From assembly GCF_001887775.1 (NCBI RefSeq), contig NZ_CP015519.1, forward strand, positions 186,001-250,000: a stretch of 64,000 bases of DNA. The letters are read 5' to 3'. The stretch comes from Syntrophotalea acetylenivorans. Lineage in GTDB: Bacteria; Desulfobacterota; Desulfuromonadia; Desulfuromonadales; Syntrophotaleaceae. Position numbers and translations under genes: made by a program. Below are positions 4,526-50,697 of this stretch, one piece after another. Each line of letters begins with the position of its first letter. The stretch's first letter is position 1. The notes below the pieces were generated by a model. That model saw nothing but the letters and a program-made list of their open reading frames with translations. It made no database searches and was not told the origin of the DNA.

Positions 4526-4541
4526 TGGCACGGGCTATGCA
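4526..4541 (+). promoter_or_regulatory. Sigma-54 promoter for nifB
   Basis: TGGCACGGGCTATGCA carries the -24 GG and -12 GC dinucleotides at the required 10-bp separation (consensus TGGCACG-N4-TTGCW; one mismatch in the -12 box). Predicted transcription start is near 4553, giving a leader of about 220 nt that includes the hairpin element at 4677. No enhancer site could be assigned. Confidence 0.85.
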
Positions 4542-4676
4542 ATAAAGACTATCAACAACAGGCGTCAGTCAGATTTCGAAAAAGCTCGCTCCTTTCCATG
4601 GGGTTGGAGGCTGTCTGGTCTCCAACCCACTTTTTCGATTTTTTAAGACCGGCTGAACGCTAATCTGGAATTGACA

Positions 4677-4746
4677 GGCACAACGGAGTGCTGCGAATAA
4701 TAATGGCAATGAAGCCCCTCAGGGATATCCCTGCGGGGCTTTTCTA
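4677..4746 (+). promoter_or_regulatory. ANTAR-type antitermination element in the nifB leader
   Basis: Hairpin 1: GGCAC (4677-4681), hexaloop AACGGA, GTGCT. Hairpin 2: GGC (4705-4707), hexaloop AATGAA, GCC. Both loops have A at position 1 and G at position 4, the known ANTAR target signature. The 3' arm of hairpin 2 is part of the 5' arm of an intrinsic terminator: AAGCCCC (4712-4718) with GGGGCTT (4735-4741), inner palindrome CAGGGATATCCCTG, then a T-rich tail. Hairpin 2 and the terminator are therefore mutually exclusive. Known biology: Geobacter sulfurreducens controls nif genes with the ANTAR response regulator GnfR. No ANTAR protein gene is in this window. Confidence 0.85.
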
Positions 4747-4775: not shown

Positions 4776-5690
4776 ATGTCAGCAAGCAGTTGCTCCCGTT
4801 CCAGCAATCAGGCAGGTCACCCCAACAATCAGTCGGGCCATCCCTGCTTTGGAGGTGATCATCAGAAGGCAGGCCGTATTCATCTGCCTGTAGCGCCCGG
4901 CTGCAATATCAAGTGCGGCTTCTGCGAGCGTAAGTTCGATTGCGCTAACGAAAATCGTCCAGGTGTTACCAGTCGTGTGCTGTCTCCGACCGAAGCCCTT
5001 GATCGACTGCGGCTGGTCATGAGCCACCCTGTCGGAGGCAAAAACATGCGAGTTGTGGGGATTGCCGGCCCCGGCGATCCACTGGCCAACGAGAATACTT
5101 TTGAGACTTTTCGTCTGGTGAAAAAGCACTTTCCGCATTTAATGCTGTGCCTGTCCACCAACGGCATGCTGCTGCCTGAGCGCATCGACGAACTCAAGGA
5201 ACTAGGAGTGCATAGCGTTACAGTAACTATCAATGCCTTGACTCCGGAGGTAGGCGCCAAGGTTTACGAGTGGGTGCGGGCGGATGGTCAGCGCTATAAC
5301 GGCGAAGCTGGCGCCAAGCTTCTCCTCGCGCGGCAGATGGCAGGGGTTGAAGCGGCGGTGGCCGCCGACATGCTGGTCAAGATAAATACCGTCTACATCC
5401 CCGGAATCAACGACCACGAAACCCTGCCGTTGGCGGTGGCGGTCCGCAAACTGGGCGCCAGCATGATGAATATTCTGCCGTTAATTCCCCAGGGGATATT
5501 CCATGACCGGGAGCGTCCTACGGATTTGGTCATGGATTTGGTGCGCAACCAGGCGGAATCAATTTTGACTCAGGCCCGCCACTGTGGCCAGTGCCGCGCC
5601 GATGCAGCTGGGCTGATTGGTGAGGATATTGATCTGTGTTCTTTGAAGAAGCCATCGGAAGTTTCCGGACGTCTGACCTGCACCGGTTAA
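4776..5690 (+). CDS. nifB: NifB, radical-SAM FeMo-cofactor core synthase (short form)
   Basis: Radical SAM enzyme that fuses Fe-S units and inserts carbide to make NifB-co, the first committed FeMo-co precursor. The SAM-cluster motif CNIKCGFC is at residues 43-50, followed by ERKFDCANENRPGVTSRVLSP, typical of NifB. GIAGPGDPLAN and LCLSTNGMLLP are conserved barrel strands, and the CGQCRADAAG cysteines near the C-terminus are present. At 304 residues it lacks the C-terminal NifX domain of many proteobacterial NifBs; the two stand-alone NifX-type proteins upstream may serve that function. The start follows AAAGGAG. Expression should depend on the sigma-54 promoter and antitermination element upstream. 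Confidence 0.96.
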   Translation: MSASSCSRSSNQAGHPNNQSGHPCFGGDHQKAGRIHLPVAPGCNIKCGFCERKFDCANENRPGVTSRVLSPTEALDRLRLVMSHPVGGKNMRVVGIAGPGDPLANENTFETFRLVKKHFPHLMLCLSTNGMLLPERIDELKELGVHSVTVTINALTPEVGAKVYEWVRADGQRYNGEAGAKLLLARQMAGVEAAVAADMLVKINTVYIPGINDHETLPLAVAVRKLGASMMNILPLIPQGIFHDRERPTDLVMDLVRNQAESILTQARHCGQCRADAAGLIGEDIDLCSLKKPSEVSGRLTCTG

Positions 5691-8456: not shown

Positions 8457-9677
8457 ATGATCCAATCGATACACCTTGATATGAAAATCGCTGATTTAGT
8501 CAACCGCTGGCCGGAGACCAGGCCGGTATTTGCTGCCCACGGGCTGGAAGCGTTGACTAGCGAGGAAGGCATGCGGGTGCTGGCCCCCTTTCTTACTCTT
8601 GGGACTGCTTTGCGCAGTCGGGGGGTCGCCGTCCAGTCTTTTATACGCCTGCTTAACGAAGCCATAGCCGAGGAAGAGGTGTGTGAGGCGCCCGGCCTGA
8701 TCGATTACCAGAGCCAGGGGGATTTAACCCTTCTGGCGCTGATGCCCTGCGGCATCAAGGTACCTTTTGCCAAGGCGATCAGCACTTTTCTCACTGACTT
8801 GCGCAAGGCCGGCGGCCCCGCCATCACCTATGCCGTCGAGGGCAATCTCAACCAGGAGCTTTCCTATTATTCTTATGTCAGTACCATTGAGCGCATCGAA
8901 GAATTGCCCGACATCGTCGTTTCCGCCGATTTTAATTCCTTCTATCACCAGAGTTTTTACAAGCGCTTTGTCGAGGCTGGAAATTTCATCGATGTGGCCG
9001 AGACTCTGCCGACCACCTCTTATGAAAAAGCGGGTATCCTCGATCCCGAACACCAGTATTCGATCCTTGGTGTCAATCCGCTGGTGATGGTCGCCGATCT
9101 CGACAAGACTGGCGACCGACCGCTGCCCGCCTGCTGGGACGATCTGCTCGCAGAGCACTGGGAGGGGGAGGTGACCCTGCGTGGTAACAAGGATTTCTTC
9201 TGCCATGCGGTGCTGCTGCCCATCTACCGGGAACACGGTGCCGAGGGGCTTCTCAAGCTGGCGCGCAATGTGTGCGATGGATTGCATCCGGCGCAGATGG
9301 TCAAGGCCATCGACAGCGCTCAAGGCGGCGCCCTCTACGTGATGCCCGAATTTTTCGCCCACCGGGTAAAGCATCAGGAACGGATTCGTATCATCTGGCC
9401 CGCAGATGGCGCCCTGGCCAGCCCGGTGACCCTGATGGTGAAAAAAGATAGGGTTGCCGAACTGCAGCCTGTGCTCGACTACCTGACCGGCAAGGAGCTC
9501 GGCAAGGTACTGGTCGGAGCCCGTTTTCCCACCCCTCACGCCGACCTTCCCGGCGAGTTACAGGAAAAGCCCCTCAAGTGGATCGGCTGGGAATTCATCC
9601 GGGCCAACGATCTGGCCGTTGTCAATGCCGCCATCGACGATGTGTTCATGCCGGCGGTTAAGGGAGTTGTTTCATGA
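8457..9677 (+). CDS. DUF1858-type domain fused to a cytoplasmic solute-binding-like domain
   Basis: 406 residues, not assigned to a characterised protein. Residues about 5-75 (MKIADLVNRWPETRPVFAAHGLEAL...) resemble the DUF1858 helical domain. Residues about 85-400 resemble an iron/thiamine-type ABC solute-binding fold (IKVPFAKAISTFLTDL, PDIVVSADFNSFYH, SILGVNPLVMVADL, WDDLLAEHWEGEVTLRGN). There is no signal peptide or lipobox, so it should stay in the cytoplasm, unusual for this fold. Start supported by AGGAG. Its stop overlaps the next start as ATGA, so translation is coupled. Position between modB and nifV suggests a role in nitrogenase metal handling or maturation, but that is inference. 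Confidence 0.7.
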   Translation: MIQSIHLDMKIADLVNRWPETRPVFAAHGLEALTSEEGMRVLAPFLTLGTALRSRGVAVQSFIRLLNEAIAEEEVCEAPGLIDYQSQGDLTLLALMPCGIKVPFAKAISTFLTDLRKAGGPAITYAVEGNLNQELSYYSYVSTIERIEELPDIVVSADFNSFYHQSFYKRFVEAGNFIDVAETLPTTSYEKAGILDPEHQYSILGVNPLVMVADLDKTGDRPLPACWDDLLAEHWEGEVTLRGNKDFFCHAVLLPIYREHGAEGLLKLARNVCDGLHPAQMVKAIDSAQGGALYVMPEFFAHRVKHQERIRIIWPADGALASPVTLMVKKDRVAELQPVLDYLTGKELGKVLVGARFPTPHADLPGELQEKPLKWIGWEFIRANDLAVVNAAIDDVFMPAVKGVVS

Positions 9678-10360: not shown

Positions 10361-11376
10361 TGCTCGACGAATTGCTGCAACAACCTTTGCCTCAATTGCT
10401 GAAGGAGCGCCCTTATGTGCGGGATTTCTTTGCCGCAATGGGCATTCCGCTGCCAAGCAAAGGGCAGCGACTGGGACAAGTTATCGATGCTGTGCCGGCG
10501 GAACAACTTACCGAGTTCGGCCTTGACCGTCAGGAGCTGATGACCCAGTTTGCCGAGTTTGTCAAACAGATGGAGCAGTTCAAGGCTGGTGCCGCCCAGC
10601 CGGTGCGCACCGTGACCATCCTCGGCGGCTGCGACAAGGCTGGCCAACCGGAGGAGATACAGCTGGAGCTGACCGTCGGCGACGTGGTCTGCGTGGTCGG
10701 TCCGACCGGTTCCGGCAAGAGTCGCTTGTTGGCTGATATCGAGTGCCTTGCCCAGGGTGATACTCCTTCCGGGCGGCGCATTCTCCTCGATGGCGAACCG
10801 GCTGACGAAAGCGCCCGCCTGGCCGGGGAGACGCGGTTGGTCGCCCAGCTCTCGCAGAACATGAACTTCGTCATGGACCTGTCGGTACAGGAGTTCATCG
10901 CCCTGCACGCCGAAAGTCGTCTGGTGGACGATATTGACGGCGCCATAGAGCAGGTCTTTGCTACGGCCGTTGACCTGGCCGGTGAACCCTTTACCCTCGC
11001 CACGCCGGTCACCGCCCTGTCCGGCGGCCAGTCCCGGGCGCTGATGATCGCTGACGTGGCCTGTTTGAGCGCCTCTCCCATCGTGTTGATCGACGAAATC
11101 GAAAACGCCGGAGTCGACCGCCGCAGGGCTCTGGAATTGCTGGTCAAGCAGGAGAAGATTGTGCTCATGGCTACTCACGATCCAATCCTCGCACTGTCCG
11201 GTCATCGCCGCCTAGTGATTAAAAATGGCGGCATCGCTGCGGTCATAGAGACCAGCGATGAAGAGCGCCGTGGCCTCGAACAACTTAATGTCCTCGATCG
11301 CAAACTTGCCGAGTTGCGCGACCAGGTACGGCAGGGTCGCCGTATCTCCTTCGATCTCGATTTATTTCTGTCCTAG
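10357..11376 (+). CDS. Soluble ABC-type ATPase with DUF1858-like N-terminal domain
   Basis: 339 residues. Walker A GPTGSGKS at 115-122, Q-loop VAQLSQ, signature LSGGQSRALMIADV near 221, Walker B IVLIDEIENAG near 242 and switch histidine (MATHDPIL). Residues 1-75 (LLKERPYVRDFFAAMGIPLP...) look like the N-terminal domain of the first protein of this module. No permease gene is present and no membrane segment is seen, so it is probably not a transporter; ABC ATPases also act as soluble remodelling engines. Start ATG 10357 overlaps the GTPase stop. The window's next gene is nifV, behind its own promoter. Confidence 0.75.
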   Translation: MMLDELLQQPLPQLLKERPYVRDFFAAMGIPLPSKGQRLGQVIDAVPAEQLTEFGLDRQELMTQFAEFVKQMEQFKAGAAQPVRTVTILGGCDKAGQPEEIQLELTVGDVVCVVGPTGSGKSRLLADIECLAQGDTPSGRRILLDGEPADESARLAGETRLVAQLSQNMNFVMDLSVQEFIALHAESRLVDDIDGAIEQVFATAVDLAGEPFTLATPVTALSGGQSRALMIADVACLSASPIVLIDEIENAGVDRRRALELLVKQEKIVLMATHDPILALSGHRRLVIKNGGIAAVIETSDEERRGLEQLNVLDRKLAELRDQVRQGRRISFDLDLFLS

Positions 11377-11499
11377 CTTGGGGACCCTCCTCATTACAAC
11401 TGCCTTTAGGGGTAGCACCTATCTTTTTTAACGCTGAAAATTGTGGCAACCAATCCCCCTTCAGTTTCGTAACTTTTGGCAAATACAGGTTTTATTTTC

Positions 11500-11515
11500 T
11501 GGTACGAGAATTGCT
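11500..11515 (+). promoter_or_regulatory. Sigma-54 promoter for nifV
   Basis: TGGTACGAGAATTGCT has TGG and TTGC boxes at exact sigma-54 spacing. The transcript should start near 11527, about 25 nt before the first antitermination hairpin. Confidence 0.85.
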
Positions 11516-11550
11516 CAATAAGAAGATAGGTTTTACGGAAGTTTCAGTAA

Positions 11551-11613
11551 CCGCAATGGCGCGGTGAATCGGGCAATGCAGCCCCGGAGTCGTTCAGACT
11601 GCCGGGGTTTTTA
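11551..11613 (+). promoter_or_regulatory. ANTAR-type antitermination element in the nifV leader
   Basis: Hairpin 1: ACCGC / GCGGT, hexaloop AATGGC (11556-11561). Hairpin 2: GGGC / GCCC, hexaloop AATGCA (11576-11581). Both loops have A1 and G4. Five bases separate the hairpins. The GCCC arm of hairpin 2 overlaps the terminator 5' arm: CCCCGG (11583-11588) pairs with CCGGGG (11603-11608), with an inner AGTC/GACT stem, followed by TTTTT. An ANTAR protein binding the two loops would block terminator formation and let transcription enter nifV. Same architecture as the nifB leader. Confidence 0.88.
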
Positions 11614-11688
11614 CGTTTACGGTCGGTTTCTAAAAGACGCCAGATTTCTAAGTTGGAACTGGTGCGGCCGACCAGATGAGGTCAGATC

Positions 11689-12828
11689 ATGAGCGAAGAC
11701 AAACTGCCGAGTGTCATTATCGACGATACCACCCTGCGTGATGGTGAGCAGACGGCCGGGGTGGTATTTACTCTGGAAGAGAAAAAGACCATTGCCCGCA
11801 CTCTCGATGAGATGGGGATTCACGAGCTCGAGTGCGGTATTCCGGCGATGGGAGGTGACGAACAGGTTGCGGTGCGGGCCCTGGTAGAGATGGATCTCAA
11901 CGCCCGGCTCATTACCTGGAACCGGGCGTTGATCTCCGACCTTAAGGCGTCGCTGGCCTGCGGGGTGGGGGCGGTCGATATTTCCCTCTGTGTGTCGGAT
12001 ATCCATATCGAGTACAAGTTGCGCAAAGATCGCCACTGGGTCCGTGAGCAGCTGAAAACGGCCCTAGGTTTCGCCAAACAGCATGATCTCTACGTCTCCG
12101 TCGGCGGCGAAGATTCGAGCCGCGCTGATCTCGATTTCCTGCTTGAACTAATGACCATTGCCCGGGATATGGGTGCCGACCGCTTTCGTTTCTGCGACAC
12201 TCTCGGCCTGCTTGATCCCTTCGCTACCTACGACAAGGTGAAGCACCTGACTAAGCATTGCGCTCTGCCCATCGAGGTGCACACCCATAACGATCTCGGC
12301 ATGGCTACCGCCAACGCTATTGCCGGCATCAAGGCCGGCGCCCGCTTTGTCAACACCACCGTCAACGGTCTTGGCGAACGGGCCGGCAATGCCGCCTTGG
12401 AAGAGGTTGTCATGGCTCTCAAGCATGCCTGTGGCGTTGATTGTGACATAGACAGTAGTCGTTTCGTGGAGGTTTCCCGCTATGTTGGGCAGGCTAGTGC
12501 CCGACCGGTCCCTGAATGGAAGGCCATCGTCGGCGAAAAGGTTTTTTCCCACGAATCCGGACTGCATGTCGACGGAGTGCTGAAAAATCCTCGCAATTAC
12601 GAAGCCTTCGATCCGCAGGAGGTGGGGCTGTCCCGCTACCTGGTGCTGGGTAAGCACTCCGGCAGCCAGGCGCTCATCGCTCGCATTCGCCAGCTCGGCC
12701 TGGCGCCGGAGGGTTTGTCCCTGGCGGATTTGCTGGAAGAGGTTCGGAGACGGTCTCAGAAATGCAAGAGTCCCATCAGCGACGAGGAACTATTAGAACT
12801 CTGCCGCGACTTGCCAAAGGTGGCCTGA
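11689..12828 (+). CDS. nifV: Homocitrate synthase NifV
   Basis: Condenses acetyl-CoA with 2-oxoglutarate to homocitrate, the organic ligand of FeMo-co. 379 residues, the usual length. DDTTLRDGEQTAGVVF carries the catalytic Arg-Asp and metal-binding residues of the DRE-TIM family; HTHNDLGMATAN supplies the metal histidines; NGLGERAGNAALEEVVMAL and HESGLHVDGVLKNPRNYE are characteristic. It has its own sigma-54 promoter and antitermination leader. A DRE-TIM relative such as isopropylmalate synthase is unlikely given length and nif context. Confidence 0.95.
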   Translation: MSEDKLPSVIIDDTTLRDGEQTAGVVFTLEEKKTIARTLDEMGIHELECGIPAMGGDEQVAVRALVEMDLNARLITWNRALISDLKASLACGVGAVDISLCVSDIHIEYKLRKDRHWVREQLKTALGFAKQHDLYVSVGGEDSSRADLDFLLELMTIARDMGADRFRFCDTLGLLDPFATYDKVKHLTKHCALPIEVHTHNDLGMATANAIAGIKAGARFVNTTVNGLGERAGNAALEEVVMALKHACGVDCDIDSSRFVEVSRYVGQASARPVPEWKAIVGEKVFSHESGLHVDGVLKNPRNYEAFDPQEVGLSRYLVLGKHSGSQALIARIRQLGLAPEGLSLADLLEEVRRRSQKCKSPISDEELLELCRDLPKVA

Positions 12829-40822: not shown

Positions 40823-40851
40823 TGAGAAAGTAAACCCAAAGGGTTATCTCT

Positions 40852-40925
40852 TTCGTAGCCCGGCTATCCACTTAGGACCCGCAGCTTTGCGTCACTGGAT
40901 TGCTCCAGTTTTGCCATCCAATAGA
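40852..40925 (-). ncRNA. Cyclic-di-GMP-I (GEMM) riboswitch aptamer
   Basis: Read on the - strand: GGCAAA, then stem ACTGGA/TCCAGT closed by a GCAA tetraloop, then the invariant GACGCAAAGC, then GGGTCCTAAG and GATAGCCGGGCTAC. These are the conserved blocks of GEMM-I in the right order and spacing. The base preceding CAAA, which discriminates c-di-GMP from cGAMP classes, is G, favouring c-di-GMP. A TATAGT -10-like box lies just upstream at 40931-40936. It heads the operon encoding an HD-GYP c-di-GMP phosphodiesterase. Confidence 0.88.
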
Positions 40926-49308: not shown

Positions 49309-50697
49309 TTAAACGTCCTCTCCTGGTTGGCTAGCAAATCCCGGAGGGTGCTGCTTCCACTGATGCAAGGTGGTACGAATGATTTCGAAATAGCCCTGCG
49401 CCCGCACGACTTCTTGATATCCCGGAACGGCTCCCACCCACTTGCCCAATCGGACGTTGCGTTGCTGTGTGAGATAAAGAGTGGGCAATCCCATAAGCGC
49501 CGGTCCGTCCATGCCGGCAGTAGTAACACCGATCTGGCCCACCAGGTTGTGTCGGCATTTCAACTCCTCAAACAGTTGCAGTTGAGCCAGGCGCATGTCC
49601 GACCCCTGGAAGAGCGGCTCCTTCCAGCAAAGGGTCAGGTCTACTCCCCTTGTCGGAACAAGGTCCGCGGGAACAGCATCGCCGAAAAAGATGGGAGTGA
49701 GCCCGGCATTCAATACCAGTTCAAAAAGCTGCCGCAACTCATCGAAACAGGTGTTGCGCTCGGCATCGTGGTCACCCGTTCGTACCCAAAGCAGCACCTT
49801 CTGCTCTGAATTCCCTCCCACATTGCCATCGATCCATGATCTTAAGGAAGCCGATGGCGATTCCTCTCCCAGAAACGCTGCGCGAAGGGTACGCTGTGCT
49901 CCTGGCGCGTCGGCGTGAAAAGCCTCGGCGATGATATGCGTCAGATGCTTGGGACTCGCCGGACGAGACCGATAGGGGCGAAGGGATCCTGCTAACCCGG
50001 CAGCACGCAGAAAATGTTTGGCCTGCAATTCCTGAACAGCGCCAGGTCTGATCTGGATGGGAACACCGGCAAGCAGCGCCGCGGCAGCAAGGTACCAGCC
50101 TTCGCCGAACGAAAAGCCGGGATCTGCATGAAACGTGTAGGCGCGGTTCCGCTCCAGGACGATTTTTCTCGCGGCGTTTCCGGCAATTTCAGCTCTGCGG
50201 GCTATCGCTCTTGCTTTGTCCGTATTAAGTTGCTCAGCAAAACGTGCGGCCTCCAATGCCGCCTCTTCTGCATTGCAAACAATCTGCTCAACTCGCTGCC
50301 AGCCGTCCTCGCAATCTGACCATGTGGGCGCCCGCTGAGATCCGCGCGAGAGCTGCCCGGCGCCATAGCGCGCATCCTCTGCCCGGGCCGCTTGAGCCCG
50401 TAGTAACACCCATTGGAGCAACGCAACCTCTCGATTGTCCACCGCGCTGTCCAGCGCCCTTGTGGCCAACTGTACAACGTGCTCTAGCCGAGCTCTATAG
50501 TCATCGCGCACTCCGGGCAGATGCAGCGATCCCTCCAATGCCGTAGCCTCTGCCAGCAGGGTGGCGGCCTTTCGTGTGAGCCCTGCGCCTTCCGTTTCGT
50601 TATGGAGCAGCCTAGGAGACTGTTGGACTTTACGGATCATTGCGAGAAATTGGCTGTTCGAGGACAGATTGTCGATCGTTTGAGAGCGAATAGCCAT
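49309..50697 (-). CDS. Orphan protein, possible glycosyltransferase-like C-terminal domain
   Basis: 462 residues, family not recognised. Residues 1-180 are alanine-rich and helical (AATLLAEATALEGS; NAEEAALEAARFAEQL; ARAIARRAEIAGNAA). The C-terminal half looks like a nucleotide-sugar-type Rossmann fold: KVLLWVRTGDHDAERNTC, LNAGLTPIFFGDAVPADLV, VGQIGVTTAGMDGPALMGLPTLYLT, recalling GT-B or heptosyltransferase ends, where a glycine-rich turn and GLPTLYL precede the C-terminal helix. It follows an NAD-dependent epimerase (83-bp gap), supporting a role in sugar or surface-glycan metabolism. Function not assigned. Confidence 0.55.
   Translation of the reverse strand: MAIRSQTIDNLSSNSQFLAMIRKVQQSPRLLHNETEGAGLTRKAATLLAEATALEGSLHLPGVRDDYRARLEHVVQLATRALDSAVDNREVALLQWVLLRAQAARAEDARYGAGQLSRGSQRAPTWSDCEDGWQRVEQIVCNAEEAALEAARFAEQLNTDKARAIARRAEIAGNAARKIVLERNRAYTFHADPGFSFGEGWYLAAAALLAGVPIQIRPGAVQELQAKHFLRAAGLAGSLRPYRSRPASPKHLTHIIAEAFHADAPGAQRTLRAAFLGEESPSASLRSWIDGNVGGNSEQKVLLWVRTGDHDAERNTCFDELRQLFELVLNAGLTPIFFGDAVPADLVPTRGVDLTLCWKEPLFQGSDMRLAQLQLFEELKCRHNLVGQIGVTTAGMDGPALMGLPTLYLTQQRNVRLGKWVGAVPGYQEVVRAQGYFEIIRTTLHQWKQHPPGFASQPGEDV

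Follow-up and report, generated by a model that had tools for sequence, protein, structure and literature searches.

In the eut leaders of Enterococcus faecalis, which belong to ethanolamine genes, two hairpins (P1 and P2) stand in tandem with six-base loops that carry A at position 1 and G at position 4 (A1 and G4), P2 overlaps an intrinsic terminator, and the protein involved, EutV, is a receiver-ANTAR protein (available text of PMC3369931 and PMC8934654). According to the same portions of these papers, the phosphorylated ANTAR protein of the known systems holds P2, the linker between the hairpins of eut leaders is 5-12 nt long, with linkers of 3 and 14 nt sharply cutting induction (PMC3369931), and the EutV-RNA crystal shows a single base-specific contact, made by G4 (PMC8934654). 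Nitrogen fixation is touched on as well: in the available text of Ramesh et al. 2012 (PMC3369931), ANTAR targets of Pelobacter carbinolicus are placed at three units predicted for nitrogenase function and a nitrogenase regulon is suggested, and PMC7962754 names GnfR (GSU2822) of Geobacter sulfurreducens as a nitrogen fixation response regulator.

We analyzed a 64,000-nt stretch of the Syntrophotalea acetylenivorans genome (contig NZ_CP015519.1, positions 186,001 to 250,000; the window) in which the leader of nifV carries an element of the already known ANTAR-target kind. It is not a new kind, since nitrogenase ANTAR targets were reported for P. carbinolicus in 2012 (available text of PMC3369931). 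The two organisms are alike in having ANTAR dual-hairpin targets in several nitrogenase-function units, and differ in that the search in P. carbinolicus returned three units whereas four named sites are found here. The likeness to the eut leaders extends to the two hexaloop hairpins with A1 and G4, the overlap of P2 with the terminator and the receiver-ANTAR protein, with linkers of 5 nt (nifV) and 12 nt (nifB) compared with the eut range; the differences are the genes served and the presence of G at loop position 1 (G1) in 16 of 65 P1 loops of the leaders studied here. GnfR, whose name likewise refers to nitrogen fixation, is by description a comparable response regulator of a related bacterium. 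A literature search made without most subscription journals found no work that pairs ANTAR with nifV. We take GnfR to be an ANTAR protein, and it was reportedly the subject of work by Ueki and Lovley in 2010.

The nifV leader

The 312-nt intergenic region between an ABC-type gene (stop 11376) and nifV (start 11689) carries, in this order, a sigma54-like promoter, P1, a linker, P2 and an intrinsic terminator (Table 1). P1 pairs 11550-11554 with 11561-11565 around a loop at 11555-11560, P2 pairs 11571-11574 with 11581-11584 around a loop at 11575-11580, and both hexaloops (AATGGC and AATGCA) have A1 and G4. The terminator has arms at 11580-11591 and 11597-11609, with one bulged base, and a T-run at 11608-11612; 76 nt separate it from the start codon. 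A preliminary description of the locus had reported tandem hairpins 5 nt apart before nifV, the second overlapping a terminator, and direct reading bears this out; its coordinates, 11551-11613, are about one base off, but the element is real and occupies 11550-11612. The motif script places the promoter at -189 from nifV; in two congeners it lies at -145 and in genus g4 at -131/-136. Transcription probably starts near 11526. The identity of nifV is given by TIGR02660 (531.7 bits versus a cut-off of 462.9). Between the mod genes and nifV, positions 8457-9677 of the window encode one protein that combines the solute-binding domain PF13343 with DUF1858.

Table 1. Positions of the leader elements and genes (plain numbers, window; C1, genome)
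Feature	Position	Strand	Sequence or remark	Basis
sigma54-like promoter of nifV	11500..11515	+	TGGTACG-AGAA-TTGCT	read in sequence; motif script
nifV leader, P1	11550..11565	+	ACCGC-AATGGC-GCGGT	read directly; strict scan
nifV leader, linker	11566..11570	+	GAATC, 5 nt	read directly
nifV leader, P2	11571..11584	+	GGGC-AATGCA-GCCC; 3' arm common to P2 and terminator	
nifV leader, intrinsic terminator	11580..11612	+	AGCCCCGGAGTC / GACT-G-CCGGGGTT; overlaps P2	
nifV, homocitrate synthase	11689..12828	+	379 aa	TIGR02660
sigma54-like promoter before nifB	4526..4541	+	TGGCACG-GGCT-ATGCA	script
nifB leader, P1	4677..4692	+	GGCAC-AACGGA-GTGCT	strict scan; R2
nifB leader, P2	4705..4716	+	GGC-AATGAA-GCC	strict scan; R2
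nifB leader, terminator with T-run	4714..4743	+		strict scan
nifB	4776..5690	+	304 aa	TIGR01290, best NCBIfam match
P2 + terminator site, nifH	C1:184790			genome-wide pattern
P2 + terminator site, nifB	C1:190705			genome-wide pattern
P2 + terminator site, nifV	C1:197572			genome-wide pattern
P2 + terminator site, ArsC-like nitrogenase-associated gene	C1:879063			genome-wide pattern
ANTAR gene	C1:163595-164209		~22 kb upstream of window, ~34 kb from nifV	PF03861

Compared with ANTAR targets as described, the leader has two tandem hairpins with six-base loops and at least 3 bp each, a linker within the eut range, an intrinsic terminator overlapped by P2, and pairing that is conserved among relatives (20 of 30 loci, with two-sided changes in P1). 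Folding of both hairpins by the naked RNA was not predicted: in the 64-nt nifV element P1 plus terminator has a predicted energy of -28.3 kcal/mol versus -14.8 for P1 plus P2, and the best predicted fold (-29.0 kcal/mol) keeps the terminator and breaks P1, the fold with P1 being within 0.7 kcal/mol. Because the terminator is favored over the two hairpins to this extent, termination would be the default and P2 would have to be held by something. Going by these predicted energies, a terminator that beats P2 in the naked nifV RNA is expected for a default state, and folding of both hairpins by naked RNA is, in the literature compared, not a defining feature of ANTAR targets. A strong intrinsic terminator together with a best naked fold that lacks P1 would also suit a plain, unregulated terminator or attenuator, e.g. 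one that ends read-through from the ABC gene, with the hexaloops being coincidental. However, the sigma54-like promoter lies between the stop of the ABC gene at 11376 and this terminator, and both the base changes in P1 and the loop letters found in relatives (below) speak against such a plain terminator.

Sites elsewhere in the genome

The strict scan called for P1 of at least 4 bp, P2 of at least 3 bp, AxxGxx loops, a linker of up to 16 nt and a terminator overlapping P2. Applied to both strands of 104 kb (the window and 40 kb upstream), it found two elements, i.e. those of the nifB and nifV leaders. The P2 minimum was set at 3 bp with terminator overlap; a 4-bp minimum had missed the nifB element, and a tandem from that 4-bp scan at 49820 (minus strand) was rejected, its terminator not matching the P2 arm. 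Dinucleotide shuffling of the 312-nt nifV intergenic region produced a strict element in 2 of 2000 shuffles, and whole-window shuffles (n=20) had no element in 18 cases and one element in 2, compared with the two observed.

We searched the 3.22 Mb S. acetylenivorans genome with a pattern for P2 plus terminator, GGCARNGNNGCCC-N(8-38)-GGGNTTT. There were four matches (Table 1), the reversed pattern giving none, and at all four P2 is overlapped by the terminator; the gene after the C1:879063 site encodes a 142-aa ArsC-like protein that matches TIGR01616 'nitrogenase-associated protein' (154.7 bits, cut-off 109). The four sites each precede a nitrogen-fixation gene and are most likely controlled by a single ANTAR protein, by analogy with known systems. 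P2 alone, GGCARNGNNGCC, was not informative as a genome pattern (180 matches versus 112 reversed); among the first 30 of its 180 loci, a terminator lay over P2 in five, namely the four nif sites plus one site within draG that lacks P1. The region shuffles and the reversed pattern (0 versus 4 matches) support the earlier view that chance is an unlikely source of the element. It had also been suggested that a genome-wide scan might find hits on nif, glutamine synthetase and ammonium transport genes; the matches do fall on nif and nitrogenase-associated genes, but the whole-genome P2-plus-terminator search gave none at glutamine synthetase or ammonium transport genes, the pattern being a narrow one that other forms could escape. 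No Rfam family reaches threshold at the nifV leader, and a permissive Rfam scan of 11300-11760 gave two matches, both sub-threshold. The one Rfam match over the window is a c-di-GMP-I riboswitch far from nifV (RF01051, 58.4 bits, 40851-40925, minus strand).

The same tandem AxxGxx logic had been claimed for nifB and was found there, with a sigma54-like promoter of its own and a linker of 12 nt. The NifB protein scores 315.8 bits against TIGR01290, below the cut-off of 343.65. From promoter to element the distance at nifB is about 150 nt, versus 28-46 nt in those relatives that showed both. Between the nifB promoter (4526) and the ANTAR element (4677), at 4601-4635 of the window, lies a strong stem resembling a terminator, GGGTTGGAG...CTCCAACCC followed by ACTTTTT; the strict scan of this stem found no ANTAR element. 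nifD and nifK stand at the head of the window, and nifH is just outside it on the upstream side; P1 of the nifH leader has the G1 loop GACGGA and one stem mismatch. The earlier proposal of a regulon in which one regulator switches NifB-co and homocitrate supply agrees with the single ANTAR gene and the recurring element, but its scope was too narrow because the nifH leader also has the element, and the ArsC-like gene is included too.

Relatives

Under the strict rule, and with the S. acetylenivorans locus included, the element is present in 16 of 30 nifV loci and 20 of 30 nifB loci (L090, among the latter, is dubious). A looser rule (P1 stem of at least 5, no more than one mismatch, a purine as first loop base) found P1, P2 and terminator in 20 of the 30 nifV loci, P1 and P2 without terminator in 4, and no element in 6; once the terminator condition is dropped, 3 of 3000 mononucleotide shuffles satisfy this rule. 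The six are L007 and L008 (g4), L009, L026 and L033 (P1-like remnant), and L032 (nifB 63 nt upstream). L007 and L008 have a good sigma54-like promoter at nifV and no recognisable ANTAR element there, and both genomes contain ANTAR and the nifB element. Among the matches listed, the strict element stood before nifV in 9 of the 41 best further loci (L253-L293, with mostly Geobacter-, Desulfuromonas- or Deltaproteobacteria-like titles), some of the nine being genomes already counted, and in none of another 38 loci that had 150 nt or more of upstream sequence.

Covariance models were built from strict-scan picks, none from the genus of the window, using 11 nifV leaders (R1) and 14 nifB leaders (R2); the two were modeled apart, a joint MAFFT alignment having misplaced P1. 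The own-genus loci (L004-L006, L063-L065), L090 (dubious strict match), L078 and L081 (same element as L077 and L071) and, in the nifV model, L017, L021 and L031 (misaligned gaps) were excluded. In the S. acetylenivorans genome R1 ranked the nifV leader first with 29.9 bits, followed by a site without terminator at 25.3, and the first four ranks of R2 were nifB (38.1 bits), the ArsC-like gene (23.6), nifV (20.8) and nifH (20.1). Of the 42 R1/R2 rows, 22 were inspected: the terminator lay over P2 at the four nif sites, and one other row, L119, has a stem-and-T match that lies past the element and within an open frame. Some weak sites may have escaped, as the searches scored 150 of 4769 (R1) and 150 of 1497 (R2) first-look candidates. 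With E values up to 0.1 accepted, R2 found 28 of 30 nifB loci, including 14 of 16 non-seeds, two of these 14 being identical in element to a seed; at L090 it found another element (46.0 bits).

Two-sided changes occurred in 3 of 6 P1 pairs across the 11 nifV leaders and in 3 of 5 across the 14 nifB leaders, counts that lean towards pairing because the seeds were chosen for it. The P1 covariation score exceeded that of all shuffles in both sets (0 of 500), and the number of two-sided pairs was reached by 6 of 500 (nifV) and 76 of 500 (nifB) shuffles. The three P2 pairs are invariant across the leaders. Linkers in relatives range from 3 or fewer up to 16 nt, wider than the eut range of 5-12 nt. 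That P1 pairing is kept through two-sided changes argues against a plain terminator, with the same reservation about the choice of seeds.

Across 57 relatives the P2-plus-terminator pattern gave 111 distinct sites in 46 genomes; about one in ten may be due to chance, since the reversed pattern matched 13 times over all 58 genomes. Within 400 bases before nifV there were 27 sites and before nifB 22, and the other 62 fell at nifH (30), the nitrogenase-associated gene (4) or something else (28), with a terminator over P2 in 29, 4 and 10 of these, respectively. Among the ten of the last group, two have P1 and stand ahead of an electron-transfer-flavoprotein beta-like gene, which comes next in L219 and after an intervening ORF in L218; nuoA-like genes follow L195 and, behind another ORF, L173, P1 being found in neither of these two. 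In three genera (L188, L229, L191) P1, P2 and terminator stand before a pair of small genes (~80 and ~100 aa) that are alike by eye; Pfam gave no match for both L188 proteins and the second L191 protein. The L175 site accompanies a protein whose match to dCache is weak and below the cut-off, and L197 was set aside as a likely chance match. At L211 (G001:C272:6095-6137, minus strand) a leader of the nifH type, comprising P2 and terminator, is not followed by nifH within 1500 bases; it is perhaps a relic.

We repeated the search for P1 with the loop letters left free, in loci around nifV, nifB and nifH and at the further pattern sites (P1 of at least 5 bp, anywhere within the 45 nt upstream). 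P2 with terminator occurred in 81 distinct contexts, 65 of which had an upstream hexaloop hairpin. Loops of 3, 5, 7 and 9 bases were each found in 5-7 of the 81, loops of 10 in 15, and loops of 4 and 8 were elevated (26 and 40), sizes for which the stem may be that of a hexaloop. Among the 65 P1 hexaloops G4 was present in 63, A1 in 48 and G1 in 16; by leader, G1 occurred in 8 of 20 nifH, 4 of 21 nifV and 2 of 14 nifB leaders. A1 and G4 of P2 are uninformative here because the search pattern fixes them. A nearly fixed G4 and a variable A1 in P1 fit the sole base-specific contact, to G4, of the EutV-RNA crystal (available text of PMC8934654). As coincidental hexaloops would hardly have G4 in 63 of 65 cases, a plain terminator with no regulatory role is very improbable. 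The leaders of relatives also offer naturally occurring variation with which the loop-base requirements of ANTAR proteins could be tested.

In genus g3 (G006, G008, G010-G013) all six nifV leaders have a hairpin resembling P1, with A1 and G4 in its loop, five have P2, and in none of the six does a terminator lie over P2. In the predicted fold of three of the six, part of P1 (GCA..GGCGCC) pairs with the ribosome-binding/start region, GGCGCCATGC; two others have an uncompensated mismatch in this pairing, and it has no compensatory change behind it. We regard it as conceivable but rather unlikely, on these predicted folds, that the orthologous nifV leader switched its output between sister genera, from the terminator type here to a terminator-less type in g3 that may control translation. 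For S. acetylenivorans, the g3 leader with both hexaloops and no terminator (4 of 30 loci by the looser rule) raises the question of whether an ANTAR protein could bind the leader and yet act mainly otherwise than on termination, e.g. on translation or RNA stability, and ANTAR matches near or over ribosome binding sites are remarked on in the available text of PMC3369931. The terminator nevertheless lies over P2 at 4 of 4 sites here and is 76 nt away from the start codon of nifV, and we give such a route even less credence than a plain terminator.

A single ANTAR gene

The preliminary description held that the absence of an ANTAR gene would speak against its reading; the genome was found to contain exactly one ANTAR match (PF03861, 80.2 bits, cut-off 27.3). 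The 204-aa protein consists of a receiver (PF00072) and PF03861, and by sequence matches solved response regulators, i.e. 1s8n, a 'putative antiterminator' (152.5 bits, residues 16-201), and 6wsh (123.9 bits, residues 18-200). Directly after its gene come draT (PF07357) and then draG (PF03747; TIGR02662), the block spanning C1:163595-165913 (L002 17595-19913), and an NtrC-like/NtrB-like pair lies ~2.7-5.3 kb upstream on the other strand. A genome-wide search for a kinase partner gave two HisKA_2 kinases, both far away, and no partner was assigned.

ANTAR was present in 51 of 58 genomes (S. acetylenivorans included) and NifV, with the line for true NifV drawn at E<1e-100, in 44. Both occurred in 44 genomes, ANTAR only in 7, NifV only in none and neither in 7 (Fisher p=1.1e-5), and the corresponding counts for the 45 genomes that are at least 90% complete were 35/5/0/5 (p=2.1e-4), p-values that overstate the evidence because the genomes are related. 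The genome G001 (86% complete, 8% contaminated) gave no ANTAR match and no true NifV despite P2-plus-terminator sites, one of them before the nitrogenase-associated gene. This genome, the distance of ~34 kb between the ANTAR gene and nifV, and the fact that ANTAR control is itself argued from analogy would allow for another hexaloop-binding factor or a metabolite in place of an ANTAR protein, but with no Rfam family above threshold at the leader and ANTAR in every NifV-containing genome of the 58, this is the least probable of the alternatives.

Discussion

The nifV leader of S. acetylenivorans is very probably an ANTAR-target antiterminator RNA controlled by a single ANTAR protein. This reading, which the preliminary description had put forward, draws support from the one ANTAR gene, the recurrence of the element at nif genes and the leaders of other genera. 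What was observed directly is the anatomy of the RNA together with its conservation, the four sites, the one ANTAR gene and the co-distribution of ANTAR and NifV; binding, phosphorylation, antitermination, a signal and a kinase are added by analogy with known ANTAR systems.

On this analogy, sigma54 RNA polymerase would start near 11526 and transcribe P1 and then P2. By default the terminator would take the 3' arm of P2, and transcription would end ahead of nifV, near 11612. Phosphorylation, presumably in response to nitrogen limitation, would lead the ANTAR protein to dimerise; the dimer would bind the two AxxGxx hexaloops, keep P2 folded and block the terminator, so that nifV is transcribed. 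The protein would act likewise on nifH, nifB and the ArsC-like nitrogenase-associated gene.

If this is true, one RNA-binding response regulator sets the read-through into the genes for nitrogenase reductase, cofactor, homocitrate and the nitrogenase-associated protein. The position of the ANTAR gene directly before the DraT/DraG genes, whose products turn nitrogenase off and on, would then couple transcript read-through with enzyme inactivation within one operon.
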